Positions 9,715 to 42,100 of a stretch of 64,000 nt of DNA are shown here, one piece after another. A program made the position numbers and the translations under genes. Location of the stretch: contig CACYSG010000012.1 of assembly GCA_902776955.1 (NCBI GenBank), positions 33,886 to 97,885 on the forward strand, given 5' to 3'. This stretch comes from an uncultured Bacteroidales bacterium (lineage in GTDB: Bacteria > Bacteroidota > Bacteroidia > Bacteroidales > Muribaculaceae). Position 1 is the first letter of the stretch; the number at the start of each line of letters is the position of its first letter. The notes under the pieces were generated by a model. It was not told where the DNA came from. It saw only the letters and a program-made list of their open reading frames with translations, and made no database searches.

Positions 9715-11984
9715 ATGAAGAAATTACTTTTTCTAATGCTGATAGCTATGCTGTCTTCAATGACAGTACAAGCTATGGACTCCGAAAATGGAGGAGTTAC
9801 AAGTGGCTCCAGAGCTCTCGGATACTTCACCATGCCGGAGCTTCAAGTCGAGCCCGGTGAGACTGTAGTAGTGCCCATTTCCTTCACTTGTGAGGATCCC
9901 GTCCGTGCACTTGGCGTCTACACCACCGTTCCCGATGGCTTTGAGGTCATCAGCGTTGAGCCCACCGACAGGGCCATCGCACAATTCCAGTACGCCACGC
10001 CCGCTGGGCAGTGCAACATGGCCTTCTATGACATCTATAATCAATTGGCCCTTGCAGGCACTGAAGGCGTTGTCGTCAACATCACGCTCAAAGCTGCCGA
10101 AAACTTGTCAGGTGATTACACCTATACCATCAACAGGAGCGATTACGGCATTGTAGGCACTAGCGATTCTTATTATCCCGAGAATGTATCCACCACGATT
10201 CATGTAGGCGGTACTCCCTCCATCGGTGCCCTCGGCGTGTTCTCGATGCCCTCGCTTCAGGTCGAGGCCGGTGACACGTTCGTTCTTCCCGTTTCGTTCA
10301 ACTGTGAGAACTCTGTTTACTCGCTCGCATTCGGTGTGGCCATCCCCACGGGATTTGAGGTCGTCAGCGTTCAGAAGGCCGACAGGGTGACCGGTACTTT
10401 CCAGTACGCAACCCCCGCTGGGGCCGTCAACGTGGCCATCTATGACATCAACGGTGCGAGTGCCATCAACGGCAACGAAGGCCCGGTGATCAACATCACC
10501 CTGAAGGCTACCGAAAACCTGTCAGGCGATTACACGTTCACCGTCAATGACGGCAATCCCTCGGCGTATTCACGATGCCCGAACTTCAGGTCGAGGCCGG
10601 TGACACGTTCGTTCTTCCCGTTTCGTTCAACTGTGAGAACTCTGTTTACTCGCTCGCCTTCGGCGTAGCCATTCCCGAGGGATTTGAGGTCGTCAGCGTT
10701 GAGAAGGCCGACAGGGTGACCGGTACATTCCAGTACGCAACCCCCGCTGGAGCCGTCAACGTGGCCATCTATGACCTCAACGGTGCAAGTGCCATCAACG
10801 GCAACGAAGGCCCGGTGATCAACATCACCCTGAAGGCTACCGAAAACCTGTCTGGTGATTACACATTCACCGTCAGCGAGGGCAACTACGGTATTGTAGG
10901 CCTCGTAGGCAATCCCCAGTATCCCCAGGATGCATCCACCACGGTACACGTCAACGCTACTCCCTCCATCGGTGCCCTGGGCGTATTCACGATGCCCGAG
11001 CTTCAGGTCGAGGCTGGCGACACGTTCGTTCTTCCCGTTTCGTTCAACTGTGAGAACTCTGTTTACTCGCTCGCTTTCGCCGTAGACATTCCCGAGGGAT
11101 TTGAGATCGTCAGCGTTCAGAAGGCCGACAGAGTGACCGGTACATACGGGTCAGGTACCCCTGAGGGCACCAACACCGTTAACGTGATCATCTATAACCT
11201 CGATGCCGAAAGCGCTATCGATGGTCATGACGGCCCGGTGGTCAACATCACCTTGAAGGCTACCGAAAACCTGTCGGGTGATTACACAGTCATCCTCAGG
11301 GACGGCAATTACGGCGCCGTCGGCTTCGTAGGCAATCCCCAGTATCCCGAGAACGTGTCCACCACGATACATGTCAACGCCGCTACTCCCACCCCCGGCG
11401 CCCTCGGATACTTCACCATGCCTGAGCTTCAGGTCGAGCCCGGTCAGACTGTAGTAGTGCCCATTTCCTTCACCTGTGAGGATCCCGTCCGTGCACTCGG
11501 CGTCTTCACCACTGTTCCCGAGGGCTTTGAGGTCATCAGCGTTGAGCCCACCGAAAGGGCCATCGCACAATTCCAGTACGCCACGCCCGCCGGGCAGTGC
11601 AACATGGCCTTCTATGACATCTATAATCAAAGGGTTCTTGCAGGCACCGACGGCGTTATCGTCAACATCACGCTCAAGGCTGCCGAAAACCTGTCAGGCG
11701 ATTACACCTACACCATCAACAGGAGCGATTACGGCATTGTAGGCAATCTTGAAGAAGTCCTGTATCCCGAGAGTGTATCCACCACGATACATATTGTTTC
11801 GCCCCAGGGTGACGTGAATGGTGACAACCAGGTGAATGTCTCGGACGTAACCCTCTTGGTGAACTATCTGGTGAATGAAGACTCGCCCGAGGATATGCCC
11901 GCATCTGCCGATGTAAATAGGGACAGCACTGTAAACGTAAGCGACGTGACCACTCTGGTCAACATACTGCTCAACCGCAGATAA
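9715..11984 (+). pseudogene. Secreted five-module cohesin-like protein with C-terminal dockerin, frameshifted
   Basis: A signal peptide (MKKLLFLMLIAMLSSMTVQA) starts a row of five ~110-135-residue modules with a cohesin-like pattern: VEAGDTFVLPVSF, then GFEVVSVE, then PVINITLKA. Modules 1 and 5 are one subtype (EDPVRALGV); 2, 3 and 4 are another (ENSVYSLAF). The C-terminus (~11810-11981) is a type I dockerin of two calcium-binding repeats, DVNGDNQVNVSDV and DVNRDSTVNVSDV. The frame breaks near 10558: module 2 loses its final linker (about 88 bp compared with module 3) and the reading frame jumps, so the first part (9715-10668) ends early. The rest (10575-11984) has no signal peptide or start region of its own. 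The break could be real, a recombination product of near-identical repeats, or an assembly error. Confidence 0.82.
10228..11390 (+). repeat. Near-identical DNA repeats encoding modules 2, 3 and 4
   Basis: The segment encoding VEAGDTFVLPVSFNCENSV occurs three times with almost the same bases, near 10262, 10589 and 11005. The spacing is about 327 bp between the first two and about 416 bp between the next two; the shorter spacing corresponds to the ~88 bp missing at the frameshift. Confidence 0.88.
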
Positions 11985-26308: not shown

Positions 26309-28117
26309 TCAATGCGTCAGGATATAGTCGATCAAGGCGTTAACGTGGGTCACATTGAAATCACCGACTTCCCTGATAATTAAGTCAAAAAGATCGTCTA
26401 AGTCAGCAATGCTCACCTCGCCATCGCCATTCATGTCATATCGGAAAACATACTCATGCTCACGTTGCATGAACTTGTAATCCTTGTAAGCACCCGGGAA
26501 GCCAAAGCGAACCACGGCCTCGCGATAATGCACACCATGGGGCAGGGGCTTGGCAACGACAGCGGCATTAACGTGATAGTTAAACTCGCCGTCCTCTCCG
26601 CCATCGGTAAGTTCGATGCTCAGCCAGTCAGGGACGTTACCACCGTTGCAGGTGAGGGTCCATCCATCGTCGGCGCTCTCAACCCAAGAGAAGAACTCGA
26701 TGCCGCTGGTGATAAACGGTTCCACATCCCCATCATCCTGGAAGACCTGTCCCATCACGCCACCCTGTTCGGGGAAGGTGTACTCGCCACGCTCCTGGTT
26801 ATAGTAAAAGGTCAAGAACGGGTTATCGATGTCCAGGAAAATGGATAAACCGGTCTTCATCTCACCATTGACGAAGAAATTGTTCAGACCAACCCATTCA
26901 TACTTACCGCTGAAGGTGTCGTCCTCGTTGTACAGACCATGCTTGAGGTAAGCCAGTTCACCGAAACCTTCGTCTTCATGAAAATTGGTGAAAATCATGG
27001 CGGTGAAGTTCTTCAGGTTCTCCATACCGGGACCATTGTAGCCATCGATAGCGACAAGTATGTCACTGTCAATAACGGGGTTGCACTCTATCTCCAGGCC
27101 ATCTTCCTCGCCATAGATGGTGAAGATGATTAAATCATCGGTCTCGGGAGTCAGTGTAGCACGGCCGTAGGCAATGAGTTCACCGGGCTCTTCGGGCAGG
27201 ACAGCCACGCCATCCTCTTTATAGGGGGGGATACCATCGGCTAGCTTGTAAATCTTGCAGGTCAGGTCAACCGTGCCGAGCACCTCGATTTGGGCAGCGT
27301 CGAGAACGACACGCTTGAGCACATAGGGATGGGTAGGTTTCTCAAAGGCCTGGGCAATGCCGTCGATGCACATATTGCGGACAACGCCGGTCTGGGCGTT
27401 GGTTACAGAGCCGCCGTTCTTGCCGAACCAGTAACCGCTCTGGTTGGTACCATAGGGGTCCATACCGCCATAGTAGGTCATTGGAGTAGCGCCAAAGTCA
27501 TCATATTTCCAGCCTAAAGTCTTGGACGATACCAGAATTGCGCCGCCCTCGTCGATGTCGCTGAACATAGCGGCAGCACTGGGGGCAGACATGATGCTTG
27601 CCGAATACGAATCGCCTGCACCCAGAATGTATTCATACCACTTGTCACCGTCTATTACATTCAGTATGGGAAACGAGTAAAGCCCGTAGCCATAGGTATA
27701 GTCCACCACCTTACCCACGAGAGTCTCCCATGAGTCTTGACCGTCGAAGTCCCACTCATAAATGGTACTGGGAGTCTCAGCATCATAGATAGCCGCGAAC
27801 GTGTAGGGCGCATATGGTTTGCTGGCATAGTAGGGAGCGAAAGCGATACCGCCGAATGAACCGTCAGGGTCCATAAACAGAGAACCGGGATACATGCCGG
27901 CGGGACGGTTGTAATAAGCCTCGGGAGTGTAGGTCAAGCTGAGAGCCTTTGCCACGGGAGCGCCGGGCGTGCGCATCTGCGCGGTTTCCTGCTTGGGAGC
28001 GGGCATCTCACGGGTTTCGGGACGCGCGACATTGGGCGAAGCCGAAACCTTGAGCTGAGCACTGGCCGAAGGTGCCATGAGTGCAGCAGCCACTAAAAAT
28101 AATAATACTTTTTCCAT
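26309..28117 (-). CDS. Large secreted protein with dockerin-like tail (island paralogue 1)
   Basis: 602 residues: a signal peptide (MEKVLLFLVAAALMAPSASAQ), then a Pro/Ala-rich linker, then a ~350-residue body starting YYNRPAGMYPGSLFM. A BACON/Ig-like domain follows (~455-545: WTLTCNGGNVPDWLSIEL ... REAVVRFGFPG). The C-terminus is dockerin-like: the first calcium repeat MNGDGEVSIADL is intact, but the second (DFNVTHVNALIDYILTH) has lost its calcium-binding residues. Two close paralogues follow at 28514 and 32829. Function unknown; probably exported and either surface-attached through the tail or released. A promoter with TATATTTG lies at 28166-28159 on the minus strand. Confidence 0.85.
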   Translation of the reverse strand: MEKVLLFLVAAALMAPSASAQLKVSASPNVARPETREMPAPKQETAQMRTPGAPVAKALSLTYTPEAYYNRPAGMYPGSLFMDPDGSFGGIAFAPYYASKPYAPYTFAAIYDAETPSTIYEWDFDGQDSWETLVGKVVDYTYGYGLYSFPILNVIDGDKWYEYILGAGDSYSASIMSAPSAAAMFSDIDEGGAILVSSKTLGWKYDDFGATPMTYYGGMDPYGTNQSGYWFGKNGGSVTNAQTGVVRNMCIDGIAQAFEKPTHPYVLKRVVLDAAQIEVLGTVDLTCKIYKLADGIPPYKEDGVAVLPEEPGELIAYGRATLTPETDDLIIFTIYGEEDGLEIECNPVIDSDILVAIDGYNGPGMENLKNFTAMIFTNFHEDEGFGELAYLKHGLYNEDDTFSGKYEWVGLNNFFVNGEMKTGLSIFLDIDNPFLTFYYNQERGEYTFPEQGGVMGQVFQDDGDVEPFITSGIEFFSWVESADDGWTLTCNGGNVPDWLSIELTDGGEDGEFNYHVNAAVVAKPLPHGVHYREAVVRFGFPGAYKDYKFMQREHEYVFRYDMNGDGEVSIADLDDLFDLIIREVGDFNVTHVNALIDYILTH

Positions 28118-28513
28118 AACAATACTTCTTAAAATACAATCATTAATACTTTAATCTGCAAATATAACAAATCTTTCACAAAATAGCAATTTTTTGTCCA
28201 AAAAACAACATCGCCCACAAAAATAATGGTACACGATGCAGCAATAAACGCCCTGTAGGGCCTCGCCTATACTCAGGGCTGCCAAACCCTGCGGGGCTAA
28301 TGCGAATTTCACGATTTTTTTTTAGCCATCTGCGACTTGTAGAGACGCAAAATTTTGCGTCTCCCATCGGTAGAAATTACTATTATTCTACCCTTGAGAC
28401 GCAAGATTTTGCGTCTCTACAGGACGGCGTGGCCGTACAGTGCGGATGCCGGAATAATACTTATCGGCTTTGCGGGTTGGCGTGAGGGCCGGATGCCCTG
28501 ACAGATTAAATGA
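28118..28513. other. Spacer between paralogues: promoter and repeats
   Basis: The left part holds the minus-strand promoter of the preceding gene (TTG 28189-28187, 20 bp, TATATTTG 28166-28159). From ~28240 a repeat block (ending near 28340) matches 30490-30590, and two 22-bp perfect palindromes made of GAGACGCAAAA and its complement follow (28342-28363, 28396-28417, the latter with one change). No gene is seen. Confidence 0.75.
28342..28417. repeat. Two collapsed R2 palindromes
   Basis: 28342-28363 is a perfect 22-bp palindrome built from the two ends of the R2 element; 28396-28417 is a second copy with one A-to-G change. Another collapsed copy is at 30594-30615. Confidence 0.9.
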
Positions 28514-30370
28514 TTAATGCGTCAGGATGTAGTCAATCAGGGCATTGATGTCGGCGATGTTCACCTCGCCGTCACCGTTCACGTCACCGTCAAGGCCCTC
28601 GTCACCAATCAGGATCATGTCGATGGTAGTGTTCACGTCACCAACGTTTACCTCACGGTCACCGTTTACATCGTAGGGATTATCGACTTTTTTACCCTGC
28701 ATGAACTTGTAATCCAGATATGTACCGGGGTAGCTAAAGCGAACCACAGCCTCACGATAACGCACACCTCGTGGCAGGGGCTCGGCAACAACCTTGGCAT
28801 TAACGTGATTGTTGAACTCGCCGTCCTCTTCACCGTCAGTGAGCTCGATGTTCAACCAGTCAGGGACGTCACCACCGTTGCAGGTGAGGGTCCAACCATC
28901 GTCGGCGCTCCCAATCCAAGAGAAGAACTCGATGCTCTCGGTAATCAGCTGCTGCTGGCCATCATCATAGAGGACTTTCCTCATCAGACCACCCTCGTTG
29001 GGGAAGGTGTACTCACCATCCTCGATATCGAAATCGAACTTCAGGAACGGATTATCGATATCGAGCAGGATGGAGAAACCGGTCATCATCTCACCACTGG
29101 TGAAGAAGTTGTTCAGACCAGCCCATATATAGTCACCGCTGAAGGTGCCGTCGTCGTTGTTCAGACCATACTTGAGGTAAGCCAGCTCACCGAAACCCTC
29201 GTCGTGGTTGGTATCGGTACTGATCAGAGCCGAGAAGCTCTTCAGGTTCTCCATGCCGGGATCGTTGTAACCGTCGATGACAACGAGCATGTCGTAGTCA
29301 ATGGTGGGAGTATACTCAACCTCAAGGCCATCGTGCTCATCATAGAGGGTAAAGATGATGTACTCGTCGGTTTCAGGGGTCAGCGTAGCGCGACCGGCTG
29401 CTACGAGCTCACCGGGCACCTCGGGCAGAGCAACCTCGCCACCGCGAATGTAAGCGGGAATGCCGCCGTCCATCTTGTAGATTTTACAGGTCATATCCAC
29501 CTGGTCAAGCACCTCGATCTCGGTAGCGTCGAGAACGACACGCTTGAGCCCATAGGGATGGCTGGGCTTCTCAAAAGCCTGGGCAATACCGTCGATGCGC
29601 AACGTGCGCTTGGCACCGGTCTCGGCGTTGGTAACGGTACCGCCGTTCTTACCGAACCAGAAACCGCTCTCGTTGTTACCATAGGGGTCCATACCGCTGT
29701 AGTAGGTGAAGGGAGTATCATGGTCATTCTGGAAACCGCCCCAGCAGAAGTTCTTGGACGAAACCAAGATAGCACCGCCCTCGTCGATGTCGCTGAATAG
29801 ATAGGCAGCGTTGGGGGCAGACATGATGTGTGACGGAAACTTCCTTCCCTGGTAGTTACCCTGCATGAAGTATTCGTACCACTTGTCACCGTCCATTACC
29901 TGCACTACGGGAAACAAGTAAAGTCCCAAACCATAAGAAATAAAAATTGAGTCATCTGGGAGCATTGGATAAACATTGCCATTATCATCAGAACCATCAT
30001 TGTAAATCCACTCATAAATGGTACTGGAAGTCTCATTATAGATGGCCTTGAACTTGTAGTACACAAAAGGCTTGGTAGCAAAATAGGGAGCGAAAGCCAT
30101 ACCGCTCGGCGAGCCGTCAGGCTCCATAAACAGAGAACCGGGATACATGCCAGCGGGACGGTTGTAATAAACCTCATGATATTCAACCCGCTTGGGTGCC
30201 TTAGCCACGGGAGTGCCGGGCGTGCGCATCTGCGCAACTTCTAGCTTGGGAGCAGGAATAGCATGAGTCTCGGGACGAGTAACCTTCTGCGGTGCAGAAA
30301 CCTTGAGCTGAGCACTGGCCAAAGTAGCCATCAATGCAGCAGCCACAAAAAATAATAATACTTTTTCCAT
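28514..30370 (-). CDS. Large secreted protein with dockerin-like tail (island paralogue 2)
   Basis: 618 residues from the ATG at 30370, where the signal peptide begins (MEKVLLFFVAAALMATLASAQ); the frame extends 42 codons upstream through promoter and repeat DNA and is not used. Same layout as its neighbours: linker, YYNRPAGMYPGSLFM body, BACON/Ig-like domain, and an intact two-repeat dockerin-like C-terminus (DVNGDREVNVGDV and DVNGDGEVNIADI, ending LIDYILTH). The closest relative is the 32829 gene; for example SSKNFCWGGFQND is shared by both but absent from paralogue 1. Function unknown. Confidence 0.86.
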   Translation of the reverse strand: MEKVLLFFVAAALMATLASAQLKVSAPQKVTRPETHAIPAPKLEVAQMRTPGTPVAKAPKRVEYHEVYYNRPAGMYPGSLFMEPDGSPSGMAFAPYFATKPFVYYKFKAIYNETSSTIYEWIYNDGSDDNGNVYPMLPDDSIFISYGLGLYLFPVVQVMDGDKWYEYFMQGNYQGRKFPSHIMSAPNAAYLFSDIDEGGAILVSSKNFCWGGFQNDHDTPFTYYSGMDPYGNNESGFWFGKNGGTVTNAETGAKRTLRIDGIAQAFEKPSHPYGLKRVVLDATEIEVLDQVDMTCKIYKMDGGIPAYIRGGEVALPEVPGELVAAGRATLTPETDEYIIFTLYDEHDGLEVEYTPTIDYDMLVVIDGYNDPGMENLKSFSALISTDTNHDEGFGELAYLKYGLNNDDGTFSGDYIWAGLNNFFTSGEMMTGFSILLDIDNPFLKFDFDIEDGEYTFPNEGGLMRKVLYDDGQQQLITESIEFFSWIGSADDGWTLTCNGGDVPDWLNIELTDGEEDGEFNNHVNAKVVAEPLPRGVRYREAVVRFSYPGTYLDYKFMQGKKVDNPYDVNGDREVNVGDVNTTIDMILIGDEGLDGDVNGDGEVNIADINALIDYILTH

Positions 30371-30646
30371 AACAAAACTTTTTAAAAATGACAAATAATA
30401 CTTTAGACTGCAAAAATAATAAATATTTTTACAATATAGAGGTTTTTGTCCCAAAAAATCACATTCAGCCACAAAAAATGGCACACGACGCAGCAATAAA
30501 CGCCCTGTTGGGCCTCGCCTATACTCAGGGTTGCAAAACCCTGCGGGGCTAATGCGAATTACACAAATTTTATTTAGCCATCTGCGACCTGTAGAGACGC
30601 AAAATTTTGCGTCTCAAGGGCAGCAAATTGTAATGTCTAACGCTTG

Positions 30647-30733
30647 GAGACGCAAGATTTTGGATAAATTTGGCGGCACTTCAACCATTGATGCAAGCAT
30701 CATGGTATTCAGTTTGCACAAATTTTGCGTCTC
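30647..30733 (+). repeat. 87-bp R2 element, plus orientation
   Basis: The ends are inverted copies of GAGACGCAAAATTTTG (with minor changes) and the middle contains the small palindrome GATGCAAGCATC. A reverse-complement copy of the same length is at 32009-32095. Confidence 0.92.
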
Positions 30734-30814
30734 TACAGACCAGAACATTGAGCATCAGCACTTTTTGTGTAATTCGTCTAATTGGCGTAATTTGCATTGA
30801 AAAAACAATGGGAT

Positions 30815-30877
30815 AACTTCTATATCGTTCCTAATATTGTTTTGATTTGGCTTCGCCGAAGCTAAAGGTTCTCGCGC
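30815..30877 (-). repeat. R3 repeat, inverted copy
   Basis: Reverse complement of the block at 12083-12148; contains GATTTGGCTTCGCCGAAGC. It faces the direct copy at 31863-31930 across the lipoprotein gene. Confidence 0.88.
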
Positions 30878-30995
30878 GCAGCGCGATCATCATAAGAGAG
30901 ATTAGTTTTTCAACGACCTCTTGATCGTGTCCCCAGTAGTCATCCGCTGTAGCTCAATAACAGCGAGATGCAGAAAGAAATATGAGCTGCGATTA

Positions 30996-31027
30996 TTTGT
31001 CATTTTTGGTAATTACCATTATCTTTG
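30996..31027 (+). promoter_or_regulatory. Promoter of the island lipoprotein gene
   Basis: TTTG (30996-30999), 20 bp, TATCTTTG (31020-31027); leader ~36 nt. Confidence 0.65.
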
Positions 31028-31068
31028 CAACTCAGAACACTTTTTAAACCCATTAATCCATTACAGCG

Positions 31069-31785
31069 ATGAAAAAGACATTAATAGGAATGGCGATGTG
31101 CGCCTTGGCACTTGCCGGGTGTGGAAACGATGACATAATCTTTGACGAGCCTGAACCTGAAATCATTACCGCCGAGAACGACCCCGCTCTCGAGAAACTC
31201 GCAAGGAATGTTGGTTTCTATTGTATCAGATATGGGGAACTCGCACGTTGGGAATTTGCCTACCGTGCAGCGGGGCAGTACTGCATCTTCCCCATGACCG
31301 AGGCGAGGGCACAGCAACTTGAACAGCTCGACCAACAAGAGGGGGCACCGCTGAGGAGAGCCAATGATTTCTATGACCTTAAAATTTCTGAAATCTTTAG
31401 TACTTTTGCAACTCCGGTTTTGGTTAACGATTTCTATGTCGTTACCGGCAGCCGTGACTTCATCACCAGCGATGACTATGTGAGCGACATGTATTTTTTC
31501 TCGTACTACAGCTATTACGACTATACCAAACCTGCATTTTTTGTGGTTGACCCACGCATCGTTGTTTGCGTTCCAGACCCCAAGACCAAAGATACAATCC
31601 TAAAAGACTACCGCGGGAAACTCACTGAATCAACCCGTGTAGAACAAGGAATGAGTTTGAATGGGGGATATCGGTATGAGTTTGACTGCACGCTTAAGAC
31701 GTCGGAAGAGGTAATGAACCTGGCGGACAAAATCTACAGGCGTGATGACGTGACATGGGCCGAGGCCGGTTGCTATAAGCAATAA
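31069..31785 (+). CDS. Lipoprotein of unknown function inside nested inverted repeats
   Basis: 238 residues with a clear lipoprotein signal (MKKTLIGMAMCALALAGC, Cys18) followed by an acidic stretch DDIIFDEPEPEI. The rest shows no family I recognise: mixed alpha/beta, a Tyr-rich segment (FFSYYSYYDYTKPAFFV) and a late DVTWAEAGCYKQ end. It has its own promoter and is the only plus-strand gene between 22.6 and 43.0 kb. It is bracketed by R2-R3 on the left and inverted R3-R2 on the right. Membrane-anchored; role unknown. Confidence 0.8.
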   Translation: MKKTLIGMAMCALALAGCGNDDIIFDEPEPEIITAENDPALEKLARNVGFYCIRYGELARWEFAYRAAGQYCIFPMTEARAQQLEQLDQQEGAPLRRANDFYDLKISEIFSTFATPVLVNDFYVVTGSRDFITSDDYVSDMYFFSYYSYYDYTKPAFFVVDPRIVVCVPDPKTKDTILKDYRGKLTESTRVEQGMSLNGGYRYEFDCTLKTSEEVMNLADKIYRRDDVTWAEAGCYKQ

Positions 31786-31862
31786 TAAATCCGACGTAAG
31801 TATATGTGAGACCCGTAGAGGGTGTGTCATAATAACGTCGTTGGTTATTAATCGGCCTTACG

Positions 31863-31930
31863 GCCGAGAACCTTTAGCTCGGCGAAGCCAAATCAATAAA
31901 AATTATTGGCAATGATATAGATACTGGCCC
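31863..31930 (+). repeat. R3 repeat, direct copy 2
   Basis: Shares CGAGAACCTTTAGCTCGGCG and the following AAGCCAAATCAA with 12083-12148; inverted relative to 30815-30877. Confidence 0.85.
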
Positions 31931-32008
31931 AGCCTATACTCAGGGCGGCAAAACCCTGTGGGGCTGATGCGAATTTCACGAATAATTTTTAGCCATCTGC
32001 GACTTGTA

Positions 32009-32095
32009 GAGACGCAAAATTTGAGCAAACTGAATACCATGATGCTTGCATCAATGGTTGAAGTGCCGCCATATTTATCCAAAATTTTGCGTCTC
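32009..32095 (-). repeat. 87-bp R2 element, minus orientation
   Basis: Reverse complement of 30647-30733, same length, with only a few substitutions (for example TTGAGCAAACTG here against CAGTTTGCACAA there). Confidence 0.92.
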
Positions 32096-32138
32096 AAGTC
32101 TAGATCAATTAATTTTCTAATATTTTGTGGGGTAACGG

Positions 32139-32189
32139 GGGGACTCCTGTCCGAAAAATGCAGGCATTTTTCATCCAGGAGCCGTCCCC
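32139..32189. repeat. Family R1 hairpin element, copy 3
   Basis: Core GAAAAATGC-AG-GCATTTTTC is unchanged. The outer arms are shortened: GGGGAC-TCCT against AGGAGCCGTCCCC, so the left arm has lost GG, but its tip TCCT still pairs with AGGA. Confidence 0.85.
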
Positions 32190-32219
32190 GGTCGCTGTGG
32201 TCGCCCCGGTCGCTGGCGG

Positions 32220-32624
32220 GTAGGGCCTCGCCTTGGCGTGGCCGCAATGAGGCAAGCAAAACAGAGAGGAGGTGCATCATTGGGACGGGTCTTTGTGATG
32301 GCACTTTTGGGGTGGTAACAGCATCGGGGGAGGTGCATCATTGGGACGGGTCTTTGTGATGGCGTCGCTTTGCTTTGGCCATCAAAAGAACGCGTCCCAG
32401 CTGATGGCACCCGTGCTGCCCTAGAGTGCGGATGCCCCCCCCTAAACTCTAACCTCTAAACTCTAAACTGCGGGCGCCAGGCCGCATATTTGCGGATGCC
32501 CCCCTCTAAACTCTAACCCCTAAACTCTAAACTGCGGGCGCCAGGCCGCATATTTGCGGATGCCAATTTGTTTAATTGGCGAAATTCGTAGTTTATTATC
32601 GGCCACGCCAAGGCGAGGCCCTAC
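32220..32624. repeat. 405-bp element with 24-bp inverted ends and internal tandem repeats
   Basis: The ends (32220-32243 and 32601-32624) are the same 24-bp inverted pair as at 12249-12369. Inside are an identical 35-bp repeat at 32268-32302 and 32329-32363 (61-bp period) and two 64-bp units (32428-32491, 32492-32555) rich in CTAAACTCTAA. No open frame of note. Confidence 0.82.
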
Positions 32625-32828
32625 ATCCTGCGGATTCTCCTCTGATGCGTTTTACCGGATAGCCTATAATTGATTTTCTAATATTTTGTGGGTACGGGAA
32701 AGGGGGGTGACAGATAAAACGAGACGGGAAGCCTTCTATCAGGCGTCCCGTCTCTACAGGTAATAGATGATATGTTAAGAAACTGTAATAATTTTCAGTT
32801 TGTTAGATACCTCTATCGGGTGATAACA

Positions 32829-34685
32829 TTAATGCGTCAGGATGTAGTCAATCAGGGCATTGATGTCGGCGATGTTCACCTCACCGTCACGGTTCACGTC
32901 ACCCCTAGGACTCTCGTCGCCAGAGAGGATCATGTCGATGGTGGTGTTCACGTCACCAATGTTCACCTCGCCGTCACCGTTTACATCGAAGGGATTGTCG
33001 GGCTCCTCACCCTGAGTGAACTTGTAATCCAAGTAAGCACCGGGGAACTCGAAGCGAACTACGGCCTCACGATAAGGAACACCTGCGGGCAGGGGCTCGG
33101 CAACAACCTTGGCGTTAACCTCGTTGTTGAACTCGCCGTCCTCCTCACCGTCGGTGAGCTCGATGCTCAGCCAGTCGGGAACGTCGTCACCGTTGCAGGT
33201 GAGGGTCCAACCCTCGTCAACGCTGGGAACCCAAGCGAAGAACTCGATGCTCTCGGTAATCAACTGCTGCTGGCCATCATCATAGAGGACTTTCCTCATC
33301 AGACCACCCTCATCGGGGAACTTGTACTCACCATCCTCAATCGAGTAGCCGAAGGTCAGGAACGGGTTCTCGATATCGAGCAGGATGGAGAAACCGGTCA
33401 TCATCGCACCACTGGTGAAGAAGTTGTTCAGACCAGCCCATACATAGTCACCGCTGAAGGTGCCGTCGTCGTTGTTCAGACCATACTTGAGGTAAGCCAG
33501 CTCACCGAAGCCCTCGTCGTGCTGAGTATCGGAGCTGATCATAGCCGAGAAGTTCTTCAGGTTCTCCATGCCCTCGTCGTTGTAACCGTCGATGACAACG
33601 AGAATGTCGTCTTCGATGGTGGGGGTAAACTCAACCTCAAGGCCATCCTCCTCATCATAGATGGTGAAGACGATGTACTCGTCGGTCTCGGGGGTCAGCG
33701 TAGCGCGACCGGTAGCAATGAGCTCACCGGGCTCTTCGGGCAGAGCAACCTCATCATCGGGAATGTAAGCGGGAATACCACCGTCGATCTTGTAGATCTT
33801 ACAGGTCATGTCCACCTGGTCAATAACCTCGATATCGGTAGCGTCGAGAACGACACGCTTGAGCAGATAGGGATGGCTGGGCTTCTCAAAAGCCTGGGCA
33901 ATACCGTCGATGCGCAGCGTGCGCTTGGCACCGGTCTCGGAGTTGGTAACGGTACCACCGTTCTTACCGAACCAGAAACCGCTCTCGTTGTTACCGTAGG
34001 GGTCGATACCGCTGTAGTAGGTGAAGGGCACATCTTGGTCGTTCTGGAAACCGCCCCAACAGAAGTTCTTGGACGAAACCAGGACAGCACCACCCTCTTC
34101 GACGTCGCTGAACATAGCAGCAGCACTGGGGGCAGCCATAATGTTTGACGCATACTTTTTGCCCTGGTAGTTACCCTGCAAGAAGTAATCATACCACTTG
34201 TCACCGTCCATTACATTCAGTACGGGAACCGAGTCAAGCTCGTAGCCATAGGTATACTCTACTACCTTACCCTCGAGGGTCTCCCATGCGTCTTGACCGT
34301 TACCTGCATAGTACTGGAAGTCCCACTCATAAACGGTGTTGGGAGTTTCAGCATCATAGATAGCCTCGAACGTGTAGGGCACGTAAGGCTTGGTGGCAAA
34401 ATAGGGAGCGAAAGCGATACCGCTCGACGAGCCGTCGGGCTCCATGAACATCGAGCCGGGATACATACCGGCGGGACGGTTGTAATATGCATCGTGATAT
34501 TCAACCTTCTTGGGACCCTTTACCACGGGAGCACCAGGGGTGCGCATCTGTGCAACTTCAAGCTTGGGAGCAGGAATAGCACGAGTCTCGGGACGAGCAA
34601 CCTTCTGGGGAGCCGATACCTTGAGCTGAGCACTGGCCGAAGTCACCATGAGTGCAGCAGCAGCTAAAAGTAAAACCTTTTTCAT
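32829..34685 (-). CDS. Large secreted protein with dockerin-like tail (island paralogue 3)
   Basis: 618 residues; signal peptide MKKVLLLAAAALMVTSASAQ. Same order as paralogues 1 and 2: Pro/Ala linker with APKLEVAQMRTPGAP, YYNRPAGMYPGSMFM body, BACON/Ig-like domain (WTLTCNGDDVPDWLSIEL), and a dockerin-like tail with two intact repeats (DVNGDGEVNIGDV and DVNRDGEVNIADI). Its upstream DNA differs from that of the other two, so it was duplicated separately from the repeat-flanked pair. Function unknown. Confidence 0.87.
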   Translation of the reverse strand: MKKVLLLAAAALMVTSASAQLKVSAPQKVARPETRAIPAPKLEVAQMRTPGAPVVKGPKKVEYHDAYYNRPAGMYPGSMFMEPDGSSSGIAFAPYFATKPYVPYTFEAIYDAETPNTVYEWDFQYYAGNGQDAWETLEGKVVEYTYGYELDSVPVLNVMDGDKWYDYFLQGNYQGKKYASNIMAAPSAAAMFSDVEEGGAVLVSSKNFCWGGFQNDQDVPFTYYSGIDPYGNNESGFWFGKNGGTVTNSETGAKRTLRIDGIAQAFEKPSHPYLLKRVVLDATDIEVIDQVDMTCKIYKIDGGIPAYIPDDEVALPEEPGELIATGRATLTPETDEYIVFTIYDEEDGLEVEFTPTIEDDILVVIDGYNDEGMENLKNFSAMISSDTQHDEGFGELAYLKYGLNNDDGTFSGDYVWAGLNNFFTSGAMMTGFSILLDIENPFLTFGYSIEDGEYKFPDEGGLMRKVLYDDGQQQLITESIEFFAWVPSVDEGWTLTCNGDDVPDWLSIELTDGEEDGEFNNEVNAKVVAEPLPAGVPYREAVVRFEFPGAYLDYKFTQGEEPDNPFDVNGDGEVNIGDVNTTIDMILSGDESPRGDVNRDGEVNIADINALIDYILTH

Positions 34686-34758
34686 AAAAAAACGTTTGAA
34701 TTAAGTTTTGGTTAATAAATATTGATTAATCTTTTTTCGTTTCAATCAAAATAACGGA

Positions 34759-34801
34759 ACGGCCAGGGTTGTCAAGCCATCGGCACGCATGCCCTGGCCG
34801 T
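34759..34801 (-). terminator. Terminator of the SusCD operon
   Basis: ACGGCCAGGG / CCCTGGCCGT is a 10-bp perfect stem about 20 bp past the DUF4302 stop on the minus strand, followed there by a T-rich tail (CCGTTATTTTGATT). Confidence 0.7.
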
Positions 34802-34821
34802 CCGGTATAGGTCATCTCATC

Positions 34822-36147
34822 TTACTGGATGTTCCAGATGATATAGTTGTTGCCTTGCTCCATCTTCATGTTCACGGGAGCGAGCAACGAGTTGGCGCTC
34901 AGGTTGAAAGTACCGGCCAGCGCATCGGCAAAGGCGCGCATCGACGGAACCTTAGTAGCATAGAGCTCACCAGCCTGGTCACCCTCGCCCACGGTCATCT
35001 TGACCTGGGTATCGCCCTGGGGCTCAAGGGTCACGTAGTAAGTGGGATTGATCTTGGTAGCACCCTTCTTAACGTTGAACGTCACAGCAAACGACGACTT
35101 GGCAGCCACGTAGGCAAGCTGGATATAGACGAGCGTTGACTTGTTATAGGCCGTCAACTCGCTGGCGATCTGAGGCAGGAAGCCGGCATAGACGCCGCCA
35201 ATGTTGGTCAGGTCGGCACGCCAAGTGAGCCTTGAGTTAGAGATGATGGAACTCAACGGGTCGGCGGTCATGGTCGTCTCGTTGTCGTCGCGGCACAGCA
35301 GCGAGCCATCGGGCTGACGGATGAAGTTCTTGATCGTGTAACCGTCGAGGGTCACAGGATTCATGAACGACAGACCGTCATGAGTGATGATCACGTTGTA
35401 GGTCTCGGAGGTGGAGATTTCGTCAGCGCCCTCACGGAAGACCTTCAGGATGCTCGTAGCACCGTCCTTAACGATCCAGCGCACGCCATTCGGCAGGTTG
35501 ATGTAAACCTGAGGAATCTTGGCATTGAAGAAGGAGTCGGCCATAGCGATTACCTCGCCCATGTAAACCTCATCGTCAACATTGGGGCTAACGCGGGTCA
35601 TGATCATGTCGATGCCATACTTCTTGCCGGTGATATAGAGCGTATCGTTGGAATACTTCATCAGGTCGAACTCATAGTCACCCTCGTGGCCGTAACCGGT
35701 CTCGTCATCGGCCTCGGTATCGGTGCTGGGGATGTCCTCGGGATCAGCGAACAGGTGGAAGTACTTGTTGAAGCTGTTGAACGAGAGCACGGGTCCGTTG
35801 TCGGTGATTACATCCCACAACGAGGTCTCGCTGCCATAACCGATGGCACCGAAGTTCTTGCCCTGGAGCAAGCCAATCCACTGGTTCTCGCCCGAGATGG
35901 TAACCGAACCGTTCTTGTCGAACGTCATCAAGTAGATGTAACCAGGCTCGTCGGCATTGGCATAATACTCCATCTGCCACTTGCCGCCCTTGTCGGTGAG
36001 GATGTCGATGTACTCGGCTTTCTTGTTGTCGAGACGTGCGATGGCATCCTCGTCAAAGATCTCGTCAATCTCGTTCTTGCAGGAACTCAGCATGAGCGAA
36101 GATAACGCGACGAGCGATAAAAGCGATATATTTAAGAACTTTTTCAT
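34822..36147 (-). CDS. DUF4302-type lipoprotein
   Basis: 441 residues with a lipoprotein signal (LSSLMLSSC, Cys23). The early mature segment (RLDNKKAEYIDILTDKGGKWQMEYY) and the FDKNGSVTISGEN block are typical of DUF4302 proteins, which sit at the end of SusCD loci in Bacteroidota. Likely a surface lipoprotein that helps capture the substrate. Last gene of the operon, 32 bp after the metallohydrolase. Confidence 0.8.
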   Translation of the reverse strand: MKKFLNISLLSLVALSSLMLSSCKNEIDEIFDEDAIARLDNKKAEYIDILTDKGGKWQMEYYANADEPGYIYLMTFDKNGSVTISGENQWIGLLQGKNFGAIGYGSETSLWDVITDNGPVLSFNSFNKYFHLFADPEDIPSTDTEADDETGYGHEGDYEFDLMKYSNDTLYITGKKYGIDMIMTRVSPNVDDEVYMGEVIAMADSFFNAKIPQVYINLPNGVRWIVKDGATSILKVFREGADEISTSETYNVIITHDGLSFMNPVTLDGYTIKNFIRQPDGSLLCRDDNETTMTADPLSSIISNSRLTWRADLTNIGGVYAGFLPQIASELTAYNKSTLVYIQLAYVAAKSSFAVTFNVKKGATKINPTYYVTLEPQGDTQVKMTVGEGDQAGELYATKVPSMRAFADALAGTFNLSANSLLAPVNMKMEQGNNYIIWNIQ

Positions 36148-36179
36148 TTTCTTTTCATCGTGATTTACTGGTGAAACAT

Positions 36180-37325
36180 TTATTGATTATAGCCACCGGT
36201 GACCATCTTGCGCAGGTTAGCGATATCGTAGTCGGCCTGGCGGGTCTGGACCTCGTTGCGGAGTTCGTCCAGATCGACATTCCAAGCGTCCTTGAGCCAG
36301 CTGCGTGCAATCTGTACCTTGTGCAGGATAGCTTCGGCGCCATCGATACCATCCTTATCCTCTACGTCATAGACCACAATGCGGTTGCCCTCGGGGTCGG
36401 TGAAGTTGCGCCAGTACTTGTGTACGGTGCCATCCTCATCGGTCACGGTGAACACGTCACGGTCATAGATATAGGTGGGTTCGTTGGTCACGTCGTTGTT
36501 CTTGTAGTAATAGTAGCTGAAGAACTCGCTGGTCACATCGTCCTCATCTCCCGAGGTCCAGCCACGGCTGGCCATGTCGAGGATGCGGTTCCACTGTGCA
36601 TCGGTCTTAACGATATAGTTGGCGATGGTCTCGGCAAAGTCCTCACGGAACTCACTCGAAGCATAGGTCGTCACAAATCCGAGCGAAGCCACCTGACCCT
36701 CGCTGCGGTCCTGCCAGTTGTTGCTGTCATAGTGACCGATCGAGATGGTGTTGAACTCGTTGGGATAGGTCTTGGTCTGGTGGAGGATGTGAGCGAACTC
36801 GTGGTGCATCGTCTTGAAGTAGTACTCGTTCATCATGTCAGGATTGTTGATGAACATGTTCATGGCGTTAACCTTGAACAGCGATACCTTGATACCACCC
36901 TCGGCAAGACCGACGATCTCGGTACCCGAAGTCGGGTTATAGGCGGGAGAGCCGACGAGCAGGATGATGCGGGGACCATAGCTCTTGAGGAACTCCTTGC
37001 CAGCAATCTTGTCATACACGTCGAACCACAGGTACTTGCACAGTACAGCCAGGTCGATTGAGTTCTCGTAGGTGGCGGGCACCAGGTTATAGTTCATGTT
37101 GGTGCTGATGTCCGGCATCTTGTACAGGAACGTCAGGTTGTACTTCTTGAGATAATTCTCCAGCAGGAACGTGTCGAGCTGATAGGTGTAGGACGTGGGG
37201 TCGAGCGTCTCATCAACATCAGGGAAGATGGTCGGTCCCAGCTTTTCCTCACCGCACGAGGAGAGCGACATGGCCGCTACTGCCACGAGCAATAATGCTG
37301 AAATATAATATTTGATCTTTTTCAT
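36180..37325 (-). CDS. SusCD-associated zinc metallohydrolase lipoprotein (TIGR04549 type)
   Basis: 381 residues from the ATG at 37325 (six bases earlier is a possible alternative). Lipoprotein signal LSSC with Cys24; zincin motif HEFAH at 175-179 (MHHEFAHILHQTK). The family is known as substrate import-associated zinc metallohydrolase lipoproteins that travel with SusCD pairs. The motif predicts a metallopeptidase-like enzyme, probably on the cell surface, processing the substrate before uptake. Lies 15-21 bp after susD-like. Confidence 0.87.
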   Translation of the reverse strand: MKKIKYYISALLLVAVAAMSLSSCGEEKLGPTIFPDVDETLDPTSYTYQLDTFLLENYLKKYNLTFLYKMPDISTNMNYNLVPATYENSIDLAVLCKYLWFDVYDKIAGKEFLKSYGPRIILLVGSPAYNPTSGTEIVGLAEGGIKVSLFKVNAMNMFINNPDMMNEYYFKTMHHEFAHILHQTKTYPNEFNTISIGHYDSNNWQDRSEGQVASLGFVTTYASSEFREDFAETIANYIVKTDAQWNRILDMASRGWTSGDEDDVTSEFFSYYYYKNNDVTNEPTYIYDRDVFTVTDEDGTVHKYWRNFTDPEGNRIVVYDVEDKDGIDGAEAILHKVQIARSWLKDAWNVDLDELRNEVQTRQADYDIANLRKMVTGGYNQ

Positions 37326-37346
37326 AGTCATTTAATGTGATGAGAG

Positions 37347-39113
37347 TTAATTGGAAACGCGAACATTCTCACTGCTCGAAATAGCGACATAGCTATTCTC
37401 GGCCTTAGTAGTCGTACGGGGGTTAGGAGTCAGACCTGCGCCGATAACCTCGTCGGGAATCTGGATGGCGTAGCGCGGGTCAAGAACCTCGAGGGTGTAA
37501 ACGTCGCTGATACCCATAGTGTGCTTGATCGAGAAACCGAAGCGCTTGATGTCGAACCAGCGGTTACCCATGTGAACCTGCTGGATGCGGCGGAAGTGCT
37601 GTACGCACTGCATGTAGGGCTCGATCTCGTTGGTCATGTGGTACTTCTCGCTCGGGCAAACCTCGTCGATGTTGAACTTCATCACGATGTTGTAACCGGG
37701 GTCGCTACGGTCGGGGTCGCTGTAGTAGCTGTAGAACTGCAGGATCTGGTCCTTGGTCAGCGGCACCATGTTGTAGTTGCGGGACTCGTCCTCGGAGATG
37801 TGCTCCTGGTTCCAGATGTACAGGTCGTCGAAGGCTGCATCGATGTTGCCCAGGAACAGGTTGGCCTCGGCACGCATGAGCAGGGTCTCCTCGGTGGTGA
37901 ACTCGGCACGGATCTCGTGGCAATAGCCGATGCCCGAAATCTTGTCGGTGTACTCAAACTGCTCGAAGCAGTTGCCGGCGAAGTAGGCACCGTACTCCTG
38001 GCCACCTGCGCTACCGCAGACGCCATTGAAGCAAGGCATCATCGCAAATTTCTCCTTGGTCTTGGAGTTCTGGTACTGGCAACGGCGCCAAGACGGACCG
38101 GGGCCCTGGATCGTGCCGCGCTTAGCGTCACGGTTGCAGGTGAAGCGGTAGCCCAGGAAGCGGCGCCACCAGGTGCTGTAGTTGGTGAACAGCTGGAAGT
38201 TGCAGGGACGGTCGATGCTGGTGAAGTAGCGGCCGATGTCACTGATGTAGTAGAAGTCGTCCTGCCACCAGCCGTCGTTGAGCATGGTGCTGGGATCATT
38301 ACCCTTGAAAGCGGCCGTAGCATATTGTACCACCTTCTCATAGTCGCGCTTCATCAGGTAGAAGCGGGCGGCAAAGGAGTTGGACGAGGCCACGTTGAAG
38401 TGGTTCTTGGGCACCTTGTAGTATTCGTCGGTGATATACTTCAGACCCAGCTGAAGGTCTTCCTCGATATGGTTGTAGGTCTCCTCAAGGGTACCACGGT
38501 CATACTTCGGGTCGAGCTCCTTCTCGGGAAGGGTGGTATAAGGAATACCGGGCAGCGTAGCGCTGATGGTGGCACCACGATAGGGCATACAGAAGATCTG
38601 GGCCAGGATGAAGTGGTGATAGGCACGAATCATGTAGGCCTCACCCTTGATGGCGTCCATACGAGCCTGCTGCTCGGGGGTAATGGGCTCACCCTCGATC
38701 ATACCGGTAGCTTCAAACTCGTCGGTCTTCTCGAGAACGGCGTTGGCAACGGCGATAGCGCCGTAGCAAGCGTTCCAGATGCCCGAAGGCGTATCACTGT
38801 TGGAGATGTCGAGGTCGACATCCTGCCAAGCATAAACCTGCTCGTCGGCCTGGCTGTAGAAGCCCAGGTGGTAGCGCACACCCTCGGAACCAGCCATGTT
38901 GCTGGGGGAGTTGTTGTCAATCACGTTGTCGCTGGACAACTCACCGACGAGGGCATAGTTAGCATCCATGTAACCTGTGACGAGCAGCTGCTGCAGCTGG
39001 TCAAGGTTCACCAGATAGACGCGGGTATCGGGAACTGTGTCAAGGAAGTCCTTGCAAGAGCTCAAACCGATCAGCGCCACTGCGATAAATAAAATTTTAT
39101 ATCGTAATTTCAT
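37347..39113 (-). CDS. RagB/SusD-family substrate-binding lipoprotein
   Basis: 588 residues from the ATG at 39113 (MKLRYKILFIAVALIGLSSC, Cys20); ten extra upstream codons are open but not needed. The body has SusD features: CKDFLDTVPD after the lipobox, TPR-like helices with GEAYMIRAYHHFILAQIF, and a C-terminal DIKRFGFSI segment. It caps the SusC channel at the cell surface and binds the ligand. Ligand unknown. Starts 37 bp after the SusC stop. Confidence 0.93.
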   Translation of the reverse strand: MKLRYKILFIAVALIGLSSCKDFLDTVPDTRVYLVNLDQLQQLLVTGYMDANYALVGELSSDNVIDNNSPSNMAGSEGVRYHLGFYSQADEQVYAWQDVDLDISNSDTPSGIWNACYGAIAVANAVLEKTDEFEATGMIEGEPITPEQQARMDAIKGEAYMIRAYHHFILAQIFCMPYRGATISATLPGIPYTTLPEKELDPKYDRGTLEETYNHIEEDLQLGLKYITDEYYKVPKNHFNVASSNSFAARFYLMKRDYEKVVQYATAAFKGNDPSTMLNDGWWQDDFYYISDIGRYFTSIDRPCNFQLFTNYSTWWRRFLGYRFTCNRDAKRGTIQGPGPSWRRCQYQNSKTKEKFAMMPCFNGVCGSAGGQEYGAYFAGNCFEQFEYTDKISGIGYCHEIRAEFTTEETLLMRAEANLFLGNIDAAFDDLYIWNQEHISEDESRNYNMVPLTKDQILQFYSYYSDPDRSDPGYNIVMKFNIDEVCPSEKYHMTNEIEPYMQCVQHFRRIQQVHMGNRWFDIKRFGFSIKHTMGISDVYTLEVLDPRYAIQIPDEVIGAGLTPNPRTTTKAENSYVAISSSENVRVSN

Positions 39114-39150
39114 AATCTTTATATTATATATAATGTGTAACAACTATCGA

Positions 39151-42100
39151 TTACATACCCAGACGCAAGGTGAGGGTGAACTGCTTGGGGTTGGGCGAAG
39201 CCACACCACCGCTGTTGAAGAACTCAGGATCCTGGCCGTTGAGCTTCTTGTCGGCGTAAAGCAGGCAGATGTTGGTTGCCGCAAACTTGATAGAAGCGGT
39301 GTTCAGGCGCAGGTGAGAGATCACCGACTTGGGCACGTCGTAGGTGAGCGAAACCTCCTTGAGGCGGATGAAGTCACCGTTGGCGATGCGGGCAGTGCTG
39401 TAATTGTAGGCGTTGTAAGCCATGCTCAAGTAGTTGTTGGAGTAAACCTGACGACGCGAAGCGATGGCAGGAATGTCGGTGAGAGCCTCGTCACCGGGCA
39501 GAGCCCAGCGGTTCTTGAAGTCCTTGGTGAAGGAGGTCAGGTCGCTGTAACCAGCACCGAAGACGGGATCCAGACGCAGCTTGTTGCCGAAGGAGTAGGT
39601 CATGAAGACGTTCAGGTGGAATCCCTTGAAGTCAAACATGTTACCGAAACCGCCAGTGTAGGGAGGATCAACCGGGCCCTCATACTTGAGGAAGTCCAGA
39701 GCCTCGTGCTCCTGGAAGTTCACACCCACGTTAGAGATGCTACCGGTCTCGTCATAAACGAGGGGCAGACCGTGGCTGTCAAGACCAGCGAAGGGGATCG
39801 AGAAGATGGCACGGTGGGGATAGCCCTCGAGGGGGAAGCCACTACCGGTCACCAGGTCGATGACGCGCGAGCGGGATTGCAGCTTGGAAATCTCGGTCAC
39901 GGCATAGGAGAAGGTAAGGTCGGTGCTCCATCCGAAGCCGCCGGCACGCTTGGGCTCGATGTTGCGTGAAGAGATGGTGAACTCGACACCATGTGACTTC
40001 ATCTCGGCCACGTTACCATACTTGGAAGTGATACCACCGACACCCTGGGTGCGGATCAGACCAATCAGGTCATAGTTGTTACGGAAGTACCAGTCGAAGA
40101 CGATGTTGATGCGGTTCCACAGGAAACCGAGGTCAACACCGAGGTCGAACTCGTGCTTTTTCTCATAGGTGAGCTCGCTGTTGCCCAGACCTGCCAGATA
40201 CAGACCGGTCTCATAGGCATCGGTCTCCTGGCGCCAGGGACGGGTGGGATAATAGAGGGCCTCGGCATTGGCATAGCCCGAGGGGCCGCTCTCACCGGTC
40301 AGCGAGTAGCTCAGACGCAGCTTAGCGTAGGAAAGGGTACCCTTCTGGTAGAGACCCATGTTCTGGAAGAACGGCTCGTCATAGACGTTCCATGCAGCCG
40401 AGATGTTCCAGGTGGGGAGCCAACGGCTCTGTTCGGTCTTACCCATGAGGTTAGAACCCTCATAGCGAACGGTTCCGTTCAAGACGTAACGGCCGAGGAG
40501 TGCGTAGTTGGCGTTGGCAAAGTAAGCCATGTTGCGGCGATGGGTGTTACCCACGCTGTAGTAAGCGCCATTCTCTTCCTGCATCTGCTTGAAGAGCTTG
40601 TAGTTGAGTGCGGGCAGGTTACCGTTGTCATACACGACGCCCCATGCCTCGAACGACTGGTAGAAACGGTCAACACGGCTTGCCTCCATACCGGCGAACA
40701 CGTTGAACACGTGTCTGCCCTCGGCAAACTCCTTATAATACTGTCCAGTTGCACGGAAGTCGAAGGTCTTCAGGCTGTTCTTCGAGAAGAAGAGCATACC
40801 TCCCTCCTCCATAACGCTCTCGGGCAATGCGTTGGGCACGTCGATATCGGTATAGAGGTAGGTGTTGGACGAACGGATGATTGCGTTCTCGGGGATGATA
40901 CCAGCGCGGTAGGCGTTGGCCTGGTTACTGTTCTCGAGCACGTAGTGGTTCTGCTCGGAGTTCACAGTACGCATCGAACCCAGCAGGTTGAACTCCAGCG
41001 ACTGGTCCTGCTTGATAATGGGCTTGATGTTGAGCTCACCCTGGAACTTCAAGTCGGTCACCTCGACGTCGATGTAGTTGGACTGCAGCTCATCAAAGAT
41101 GTTGAAGCTGGTGTAGTTGCGGATATAACGCCTGTTGGGGTCAAGGGTGCGTGCAGTGTTCAACGCGAAGCTGTAGGGGTTGATATCAAAGTCACGCTTT
41201 ACCTCACCGTAAACGACGTCGACATTCTGGCTCAGGGTACCGGGAGCCTTCTGGTCACGGTAGCTGTTGCTGTTCAGAATCTTGATCTTGATCTTGTCGG
41301 TCAAGTTGTAGATAGCGTTGGCGTTAAAGGTGTAGCGCTCAACGCGGCTGCTCTTGTACCATCCCGGGTCGGCCATTACCGACATCGAGGTGTAGAAGGA
41401 GCCCTTGTCAGTACCACCCGACACGCTGACGGCGTGGTTCTGCATGATGTTGTTGTTGAACAACAGGCCAAACCAGTCGGTGTTGCGAAGCTCGGCTTCA
41501 CGCAGGTACTGGTTGCGAGCGTTCTGGGTGTTGGGCAAGCCATAACCGGTAGCGGGATCGTAGGTGTCCATCAGGGTGTACATCTGACCGTAGATACCCG
41601 AGGTGGTGCTGTTGACCAGGTTGGCATACTCGAGCCATCCCTTCTGCTCCATCTCGCGCAAGATACTCATCTGCTCCTGAGAGTTGCAGATGTTGAAGTC
41701 GCGGTAGTTGGGTTTCAAGCGGTAGGTGAACTCACCCGTGTAGTTAATCGAGGTCGAACCCTTGCGACCCGTCTTGGTGGTGATAACGATCACACCAGCG
41801 TTAGCCTTAGCACCGTAGATTGAGGTGGCTGAACCATCCTTCAGAACCTGGAAGCTCTCGATATCGTCGGCGTTCAGACCGGCGACAGCCGATGCGATCA
41901 GCGTGGTAGCGTCACCCGACGAGAGGTCGTCGGCGCTGATGTCCACGTTGTCCTCCAGGATCACACCATCAACGACCCACAGGGGCTTGGAGCTACCGTA
42001 GATTGAGGTAGCACCGCGCACGCGGATCTTGGGTGCCGTACCAAAGGTACCCGACACGTTCTGCACCTGTACACCCGAGACGCGGCCCTCAAGACCACGG

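Follow-up and report, generated by a model that had tools for sequence, protein, structure and literature searches.

The window analysed here is a 64,000-nucleotide stretch of contig CACYSG010000012.1 (assembly GCA_902776955.1; positions 33,886 to 97,885, forward strand) from an uncultured Bacteroidales bacterium of the family Muribaculaceae. Our subject is a gene at 9715-11984 of the window that encodes an array of cohesin-like modules and a dockerin, together with the candidate cohesin-dockerin system of which it may form part. A preliminary description of the locus had recognised five cohesin-like modules, and these are present in tandem, with starts at 9817, 10231, 10560, 10977 and 11403 (Table 1). 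The Pfam family Cohesin (PF00963; cut-off 24.1) scored 54.5 bits on the first open reading frame (ORF) and 79.1 bits on the frame 10551-11984, where Dockerin_1 (PF00404; cut-off 22.9) also scored 44.7 bits, confirming the C-terminal type I dockerin. In contrast, the single exported protein of that description did not hold up. The span of 2270 bases is not divisible by three and carries two ORFs in different frames, so the assembly does not encode a single array protein. The pitch between consecutive module starts is 414, 329, 417 and 426 bp, which indicates that about 85-88 bp have gone from the end of module 2 and that the frame shifts there; modules 3-5 and the dockerin remain open. We also considered a motif about 108 bp upstream of the start, TANNTTTG, which we take to be of the Bacteroides promoter type. 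It was rejected: 18 kb contained 13 matches where 10.6 would be expected by chance, which is no evidence for a promoter.

Table 1. Features of the array gene and of the other dockerin-tailed proteins, in window positions
Feature	Position	Strand	Details
ORF 1	9715..10668	+	317 aa: signal peptide and cohesin module 1, followed by a truncated module 2 and residues read out of frame
Probable signal peptide	9715..9774	+	about 20 residues, by eye
Cohesin module 1	9814..10209	+	88% identity to module 5
Cohesin module 2	10228..10548	+	lacks the last strands; 93% identity to module 3 over 107 common codons
Frame break, modules 2/3	10546..10560	+	about 85-88 bp absent
Cohesin module 3	10557..10952	+	93% identity to module 2 over 107 common codons
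ORF 2	10575..11984	+	469 aa: cohesin modules 3-5 and dockerin, no signal peptide; frame open from 10551
Cohesin module 4	10974..11384	+	structure predicted on 10956-11387, mean pLDDT 92.6
Cohesin module 5	11400..11801	+	88% identity to module 1
Type I dockerin, C-terminal	11808..11981	+	two F-hands with a class A motif; model of 11793-11981 has mean pLDDT 91.5
Third paralogue, degenerate dockerin tail	26309..28117	-	no Pfam match at E 0.01; by eye one F-hand kept, second degenerate
Protein with class B dockerin tail	28514..30496	-	Pfam dockerin 25.1 bits
Paralogue of the 28514 protein, class B dockerin tail	32829..34685	-	Pfam dockerin 32.3 bits

The predicted structure of module 4 is a β-sandwich of the cohesin kind, and its best structural matches are cohesins. 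An immunoglobulin or carbohydrate-binding module (CBM) fold, which would have spoken against the earlier assignment, was dropped because the structure matches favour cohesins. A phmmer search with module 4 against solved sequences returned no match at E 10, so the evidence for its fold is structural and profile-based; with a profile of the modules, the best solved sequences were cohesin entries of Clostridium perfringens NagJ (E about 0.001). The dockerin model has two helices and dockerin entries as its top structure matches, in keeping with a type I dockerin whose two F-hands are predicted to be of the calcium-binding type.

Further dockerins and cohesins, for which the preliminary description had suggested a survey, are plentiful in the same genome, whose draft assembly (3.23 Mb, 123 contigs) is 89.7% complete. 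PF00404 gave 154 dockerin matches at E 0.1. For cohesins, PF00963 gave 6 matches and our profile A1 gave 17, on contigs C12 (the window array), C19, C35, C31, C65, C37 and C67, the last weak and partial; A1 was picked from sequences that an iterated profile had found in the genomes now being counted, so that genus cohesin counts lean high. The 82 stretches fetched around 150 of the 154 dockerin matches yielded 163 dockerin ORFs, counted with a profile derived from these matches themselves, and in 140 of these the dockerin lies at most 15 residues from the C-terminal end. No cohesin accompanies it in 136 such ORFs, of which 127 have an uncut 5' end; by a crude, home-made rule, 121 of the 127 show an export signal (SPI-like in 116; a lipobox-like pattern, possibly spurious, in 5). 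Two F-hands were recognised by pattern in 149 of the 163. We defined a class A hand by T or S at position 11 without N at 14, and a class B hand by A or G at 11 with N at 14. Applied strictly, these classes gave 84 dockerins with both hands A, 29 with both B, no mixture of A and B, and 36 with at least one unclassified hand.

The client proteins that carry these dockerins were scanned for domain families at E 0.001 (132 of 135 prepared proteins: 69 in a first list and 63 of 66 in a second). Families are reported from the 25 most frequent of 51 in the first list and the 25 most frequent of 43 in the second, the others having at most two members and at most one member, respectively. Among the families listed, LRR_5 is commonest (36 of the 132 clients), followed by Peptidase_C10 (17, of which 16 also carry a Spi inhibitor), DUF285 (9), alpha-amylase (6) and CBM26 (5). 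M6 occurs in 7 of the 69 first-list clients, and CotH, S8 and GH53 occur in 7, 3 and 1 of the 63 in the second list. No cellulase was among the families listed for the 132 clients, which is not like a cellulose system, and the clients are not chiefly plant-cell-wall degraders as those of a cellulosome would be. At six places in this genome (C1:124208-125530, C18:77045-79813, C21:32146-34113, and on C43, C65 and C3; loci L047, L076, L079, L169, L170 and L163), dockerins are followed by a domain ending in RVxRGGxW...GLRLAL, presumably of the formylglycine-generating-enzyme or C-type-lectin fold. These are possibly variable proteins.

Cohesins were found on three types of protein. Receptors in the window's own genome consist mostly of BspA-type leucine-rich repeats (LRRs), sometimes with Big_2, then cohesin-dockerin-cohesin or dockerin-cohesin and a short C-terminal tail. 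Adaptors comprise a signal peptide, one cohesin and one dockerin in about 210-245 aa. Of 55 named loci with a receptor region, 25 show by eye an adaptor next to the receptor. By title, all 55 are from Bacteroidales metagenome-assembled genomes (MAGs), many of them titled as goat, sheep, water buffalo, yak or roe deer gut; MAGs with RUG names are presumably from the rumen. Arrays, the third type, have six cohesins and a dockerin in one open frame of 918-921 aa in three other genomes of the genus (G010, G011 and G030), and neighbouring proteins with eight and five cohesins occur in G039, from another family. PF00963 scored the G011 array frame in the genome search, and the evidence for the remaining modules comes from the iterated profile. 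Most types cluster in a quick tree of 63 modules, in which the four window modules included form a clade with an SH-aLRT of 100.

In some relatives, cohesin proteins end in tails that resemble sorting domains of the type IX secretion system (T9SS). The window's own genome encodes T9SS machinery as judged by SprA, which matches over nearly its whole length (2629 bits), and contains nine matches to TIGR04183 at E 0.01. Of 23 receptor tails, 10 match this model at E 0.5; when tails were scanned singly, 3 of 10 exceeded its cut-off, as did the five-cohesin protein of G039 (31.8 bits). Three of the five own receptors scanned end in YFNxAGQ, a tail that aligned with other receptor tails, a set picked by our own pattern, at 93.6% probability. 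From sequence, T9SS anchoring of the cohesin proteins is likely in some relatives, and we infer it for the window's own genome. The YFNxAGQ tail occurs at 37 places in this genome, two of them weak, which makes it a general C-terminal tail; set against the nine TIGR04183 matches, it is possibly a sorting tail overlooked by the curated models.

The pairing of dockerins with cohesins extends across the genus and beyond it. The 37 genus genomes surveyed, out of a set of 101, all have dockerins (29 to at least 87) and A1 cohesins (2-17). With PF00963, cohesins appeared in 21 of the 37, and we rejected counting by Pfam only, since it overlooks many modules. Among 197 Bacteroidales genomes, where dockerin counts reach at least 31 per genome, cohesins were found in 12 of the 14 with at least five dockerins, a threshold set after the fact, versus 17 of the 183 others.

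The cohesins are also conserved on their predicted binding face. Of 98 non-window modules, 96 have Q at the first of a pair of strand-3 positions and 94 have D or E at the second, shares that lean high since the loci in this alignment were found by patterns including AFQTD-like words. Of the 59 non-window rows of A1, which were not picked by that pattern, 56 have Q and 50 have D or E by eye. Judged by where the VIA range begins and stops and by the NagJ alignment, the pair would fall on Asn37 and Asp39 of the C. thermocellum cohesin, residues described as contacting the dockerin Ser/Thr motif. NagJ keeps D alone of the pair in the alignment, and a polar pair at this site is not a requirement for belonging to the cohesins.

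Together these data support a model, to which we give a probability of about 0.62, where a cohesin-dockerin assembly system operates in this Bacteroidales genus. By sequence, Sec-exported clients, often LRR proteins, peptidases or starch enzymes, end in a symmetric dockerin of the predicted calcium-binding type. Cohesins are carried by a few proteins: receptors, adaptors that often lie beside them, and arrays as candidate scaffolds, the window gene included. The dockerins would plug into receptor and adaptor cohesins, and the receptors would anchor the complex on the cell surface via T9SS sorting tails. The system probably docks adhesins, proteases and starch enzymes together. The preliminary description had raised the idea of a different sort of assembly system at the cell surface; the genome and order surveys favour the assembly, while the surface location is a prediction.

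A number of observations weigh against this model. A Pfam scan of the G011 six-cohesin protein gave no Cohesin match at E 0.1, and TIGR04183 had no match at E 0.1 on the five own receptors. Two dockerin-rich genomes, G139 (13 dockerins) and G151 (17), had no cohesin by A1 and are the exceptions among the 14 in the survey of the order, and cohesin matches are few (5) even in the one-contig genome G237. Within the genus, cohesin matches correlate with first-look dockerin candidates (0.60), which falls to a partial correlation of 0.25 once genome size is included (permutation p 0.07), so that the correlation is mostly genome size. As for the window gene, it does not encode an exported scaffoldin whose cohesins all share an open frame, as the six-cohesin genes elsewhere in the genus do. 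All five window modules have A or G, then A, G, Y or F, at the strand-3 pair, and the conserved N32 and R76 are missing from them as well. In a sister species, the syntenic array (G277:C7:125470-127350, L242) has its signal peptide out of frame too, with the break at another point than in the window. The scaffold layout proposed for the window gene thus stands as far as modules and dockerin go, but with its broken frame and altered conserved residues the scaffold role is weaker than first appeared.

Among 101 genus genomes, modules of the array subclass score above 200 bits in the window's own genome and in G277 only, the next score being 56.5. The G277 array adjoins the same ABC transporter gene as the window array, and a single frame of 628 codons holds its four cohesins and its dockerin. 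Its modules likewise lack the strand-3 pair, and its signal peptide is 56 bases from the first module motif, versus 105 in the window. Three module comparisons between the two species gave nonsynonymous divergence (dN) of 0.12-0.19 and synonymous divergence (dS) of 0.78-0.85, a ratio of about 0.15-0.22; for the dockerin, dN and dS were 0.35 and 0.76. Among the window modules themselves, dN was below dS in 10 of 10 pairs (ratio about 0.2-0.54). Purifying selection has apparently kept the array across both species. A search with P0002 in a collection of named genomes, which may omit near kin, gave no relative, and a scan of plasmids found none. As part of the model, and with the same confidence as the whole, we read the window array as a subclass particular to this lineage whose binding face has changed, retained by selection in two species and out of frame in both assemblies.

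The breaks may instead be assembly errors in near-identical repeats, in which case the true gene would be intact and might have more modules. We regard this as a serious contender at somewhat below even odds. Modules 1 and 5 and modules 2 and 3 are close in sequence (Table 1), both assemblies are of draft quality, with 123 and about 60 contigs, and the breaks lie at different places, each on the 5' edge of a module. The words flanking the join of modules 2 and 3 that recur in the array are, however, no longer than 9-10 bp, which argues against a simple k-mer collapse. Decay of the gene, with contact residues and frame lost and function gone, is a weaker proposition that we hold to be rather unlikely. 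It would account for the frame break, for the missing Q/D pair in every window module and for a sister assembly that is out of frame elsewhere. It sits poorly with the low dN/dS between the species and the open frame of modules 3-5 and the dockerin, and the residue change is common to G277 and so probably predates either break.

At the level of the system, cohesins and dockerins could for the most part link one protein to one other, in the manner of C. perfringens glycoside hydrolases, with no scaffold hierarchy. NagJ is the best profile match, many proteins have one cohesin and one dockerin, and cohesins are few against many dockerins; the six-cohesin open frames of the genus and the eight- and five-cohesin proteins of G039 speak against this arrangement, which we consider improbable, about on a par with decay. 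That the dockerin tail has another receptor, with cohesins present incidentally, is unlikely, less probable than either of these: G139 and G151, the few cohesins per genome and two dockerin classes with partners unassigned would fit it, but co-occurrence across the order and the conserved strand-3 pair would not.

The assembly model admits a speculative extension, which we think has a small chance of being correct. The dockerin would act as an export ticket, by which some 140 Sec-exported proteins, whose C-terminal dockerin leaves them without a sorting tail, join a few T9SS-tailed cohesin proteins in the periplasm and cross the outer membrane as their passengers. If dockerins do decide routes to the Gram-negative surface, this would be a new use of the cohesin-dockerin pair, serving secretion as well as display.

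Three further dockerin-tailed proteins had been proposed in the window, and Pfam confirms two of them, with the protein at 26309 falling short (Table 1). The array dockerin (motif NVSDVT) differs in class from the dockerins of both confirmed clients (NIGDVN, NVGDVN and NIADIN). On the minus strand at 26309-42501 lie SusC-like, SusD-like, Peptidase_Mx1 and DUF4302 genes and then the three dockerin-tailed paralogues, which suggests a common uptake locus.

Some rumen cohesin-dockerin pairs were reportedly tested by Bensoussan in 2017. According to a 2026 paper (PMC12997984), both modules occur in 4333 MAGs, 78 of them Bacteroidetes, a co-presence that its authors call surprising and in need of more investigation; they also state that the cellulosome systems described to date are confined to Firmicutes. 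Other work reports dockerins of rumen Bacteroidetes whose role was not defined (PMC7480376), and such dockerins together with cohesins in certain Bacteroidetes (PMC6071333). Together with PMC5742341, these sources also cover dockerin-peptidase fusions from a rumen consortium. The genome described in PMC5831590 has neither module, consistent with other Bacteroidetes. In the portions available of the open-licence literature we found no described Bacteroidales cohesin-dockerin system. Pairing on the scale of whole genomes, receptor and adaptor genes side by side, and tails of a sorting type were absent from those portions on rumen Bacteroidetes metagenomes. The significance lies in this wider system, which is larger than the window gene, and the named parts, gene pairs and residues now allow direct testing of the question of co-presence in Bacteroidetes.

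Compared with known systems, the modules described here share with clostridial and ruminococcal cellulosomes the cohesin fold, the symmetric type I dockerin, arrays with a C-terminal dockerin and clients with C-terminal dockerins. They differ in that the host is Gram-negative and of a group not known as cellulosome producers, LRRs, peptidases, CotH and amylases are the domains recognised most often on clients, a Pfam scan saw no CBM on the window array, the tails of cohesin proteins in some relatives resemble T9SS sorting domains, and cohesins are far fewer than dockerins. The NagJ-NagH pairs of C. perfringens are alike in giving the best profile match and in having a role outside cellulose degradation, whereas more than 150 dockerin matches in one genome and multi-cohesin arrays are seen here. 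The Limousia mucinolysome (PMC12997984) is likewise a cohesin-dockerin complex with a non-cellulose purpose, but in a Gram-positive host. Our best reading of these sequences is a novel form of cohesin-dockerin assembly in a Gram-negative lineage.
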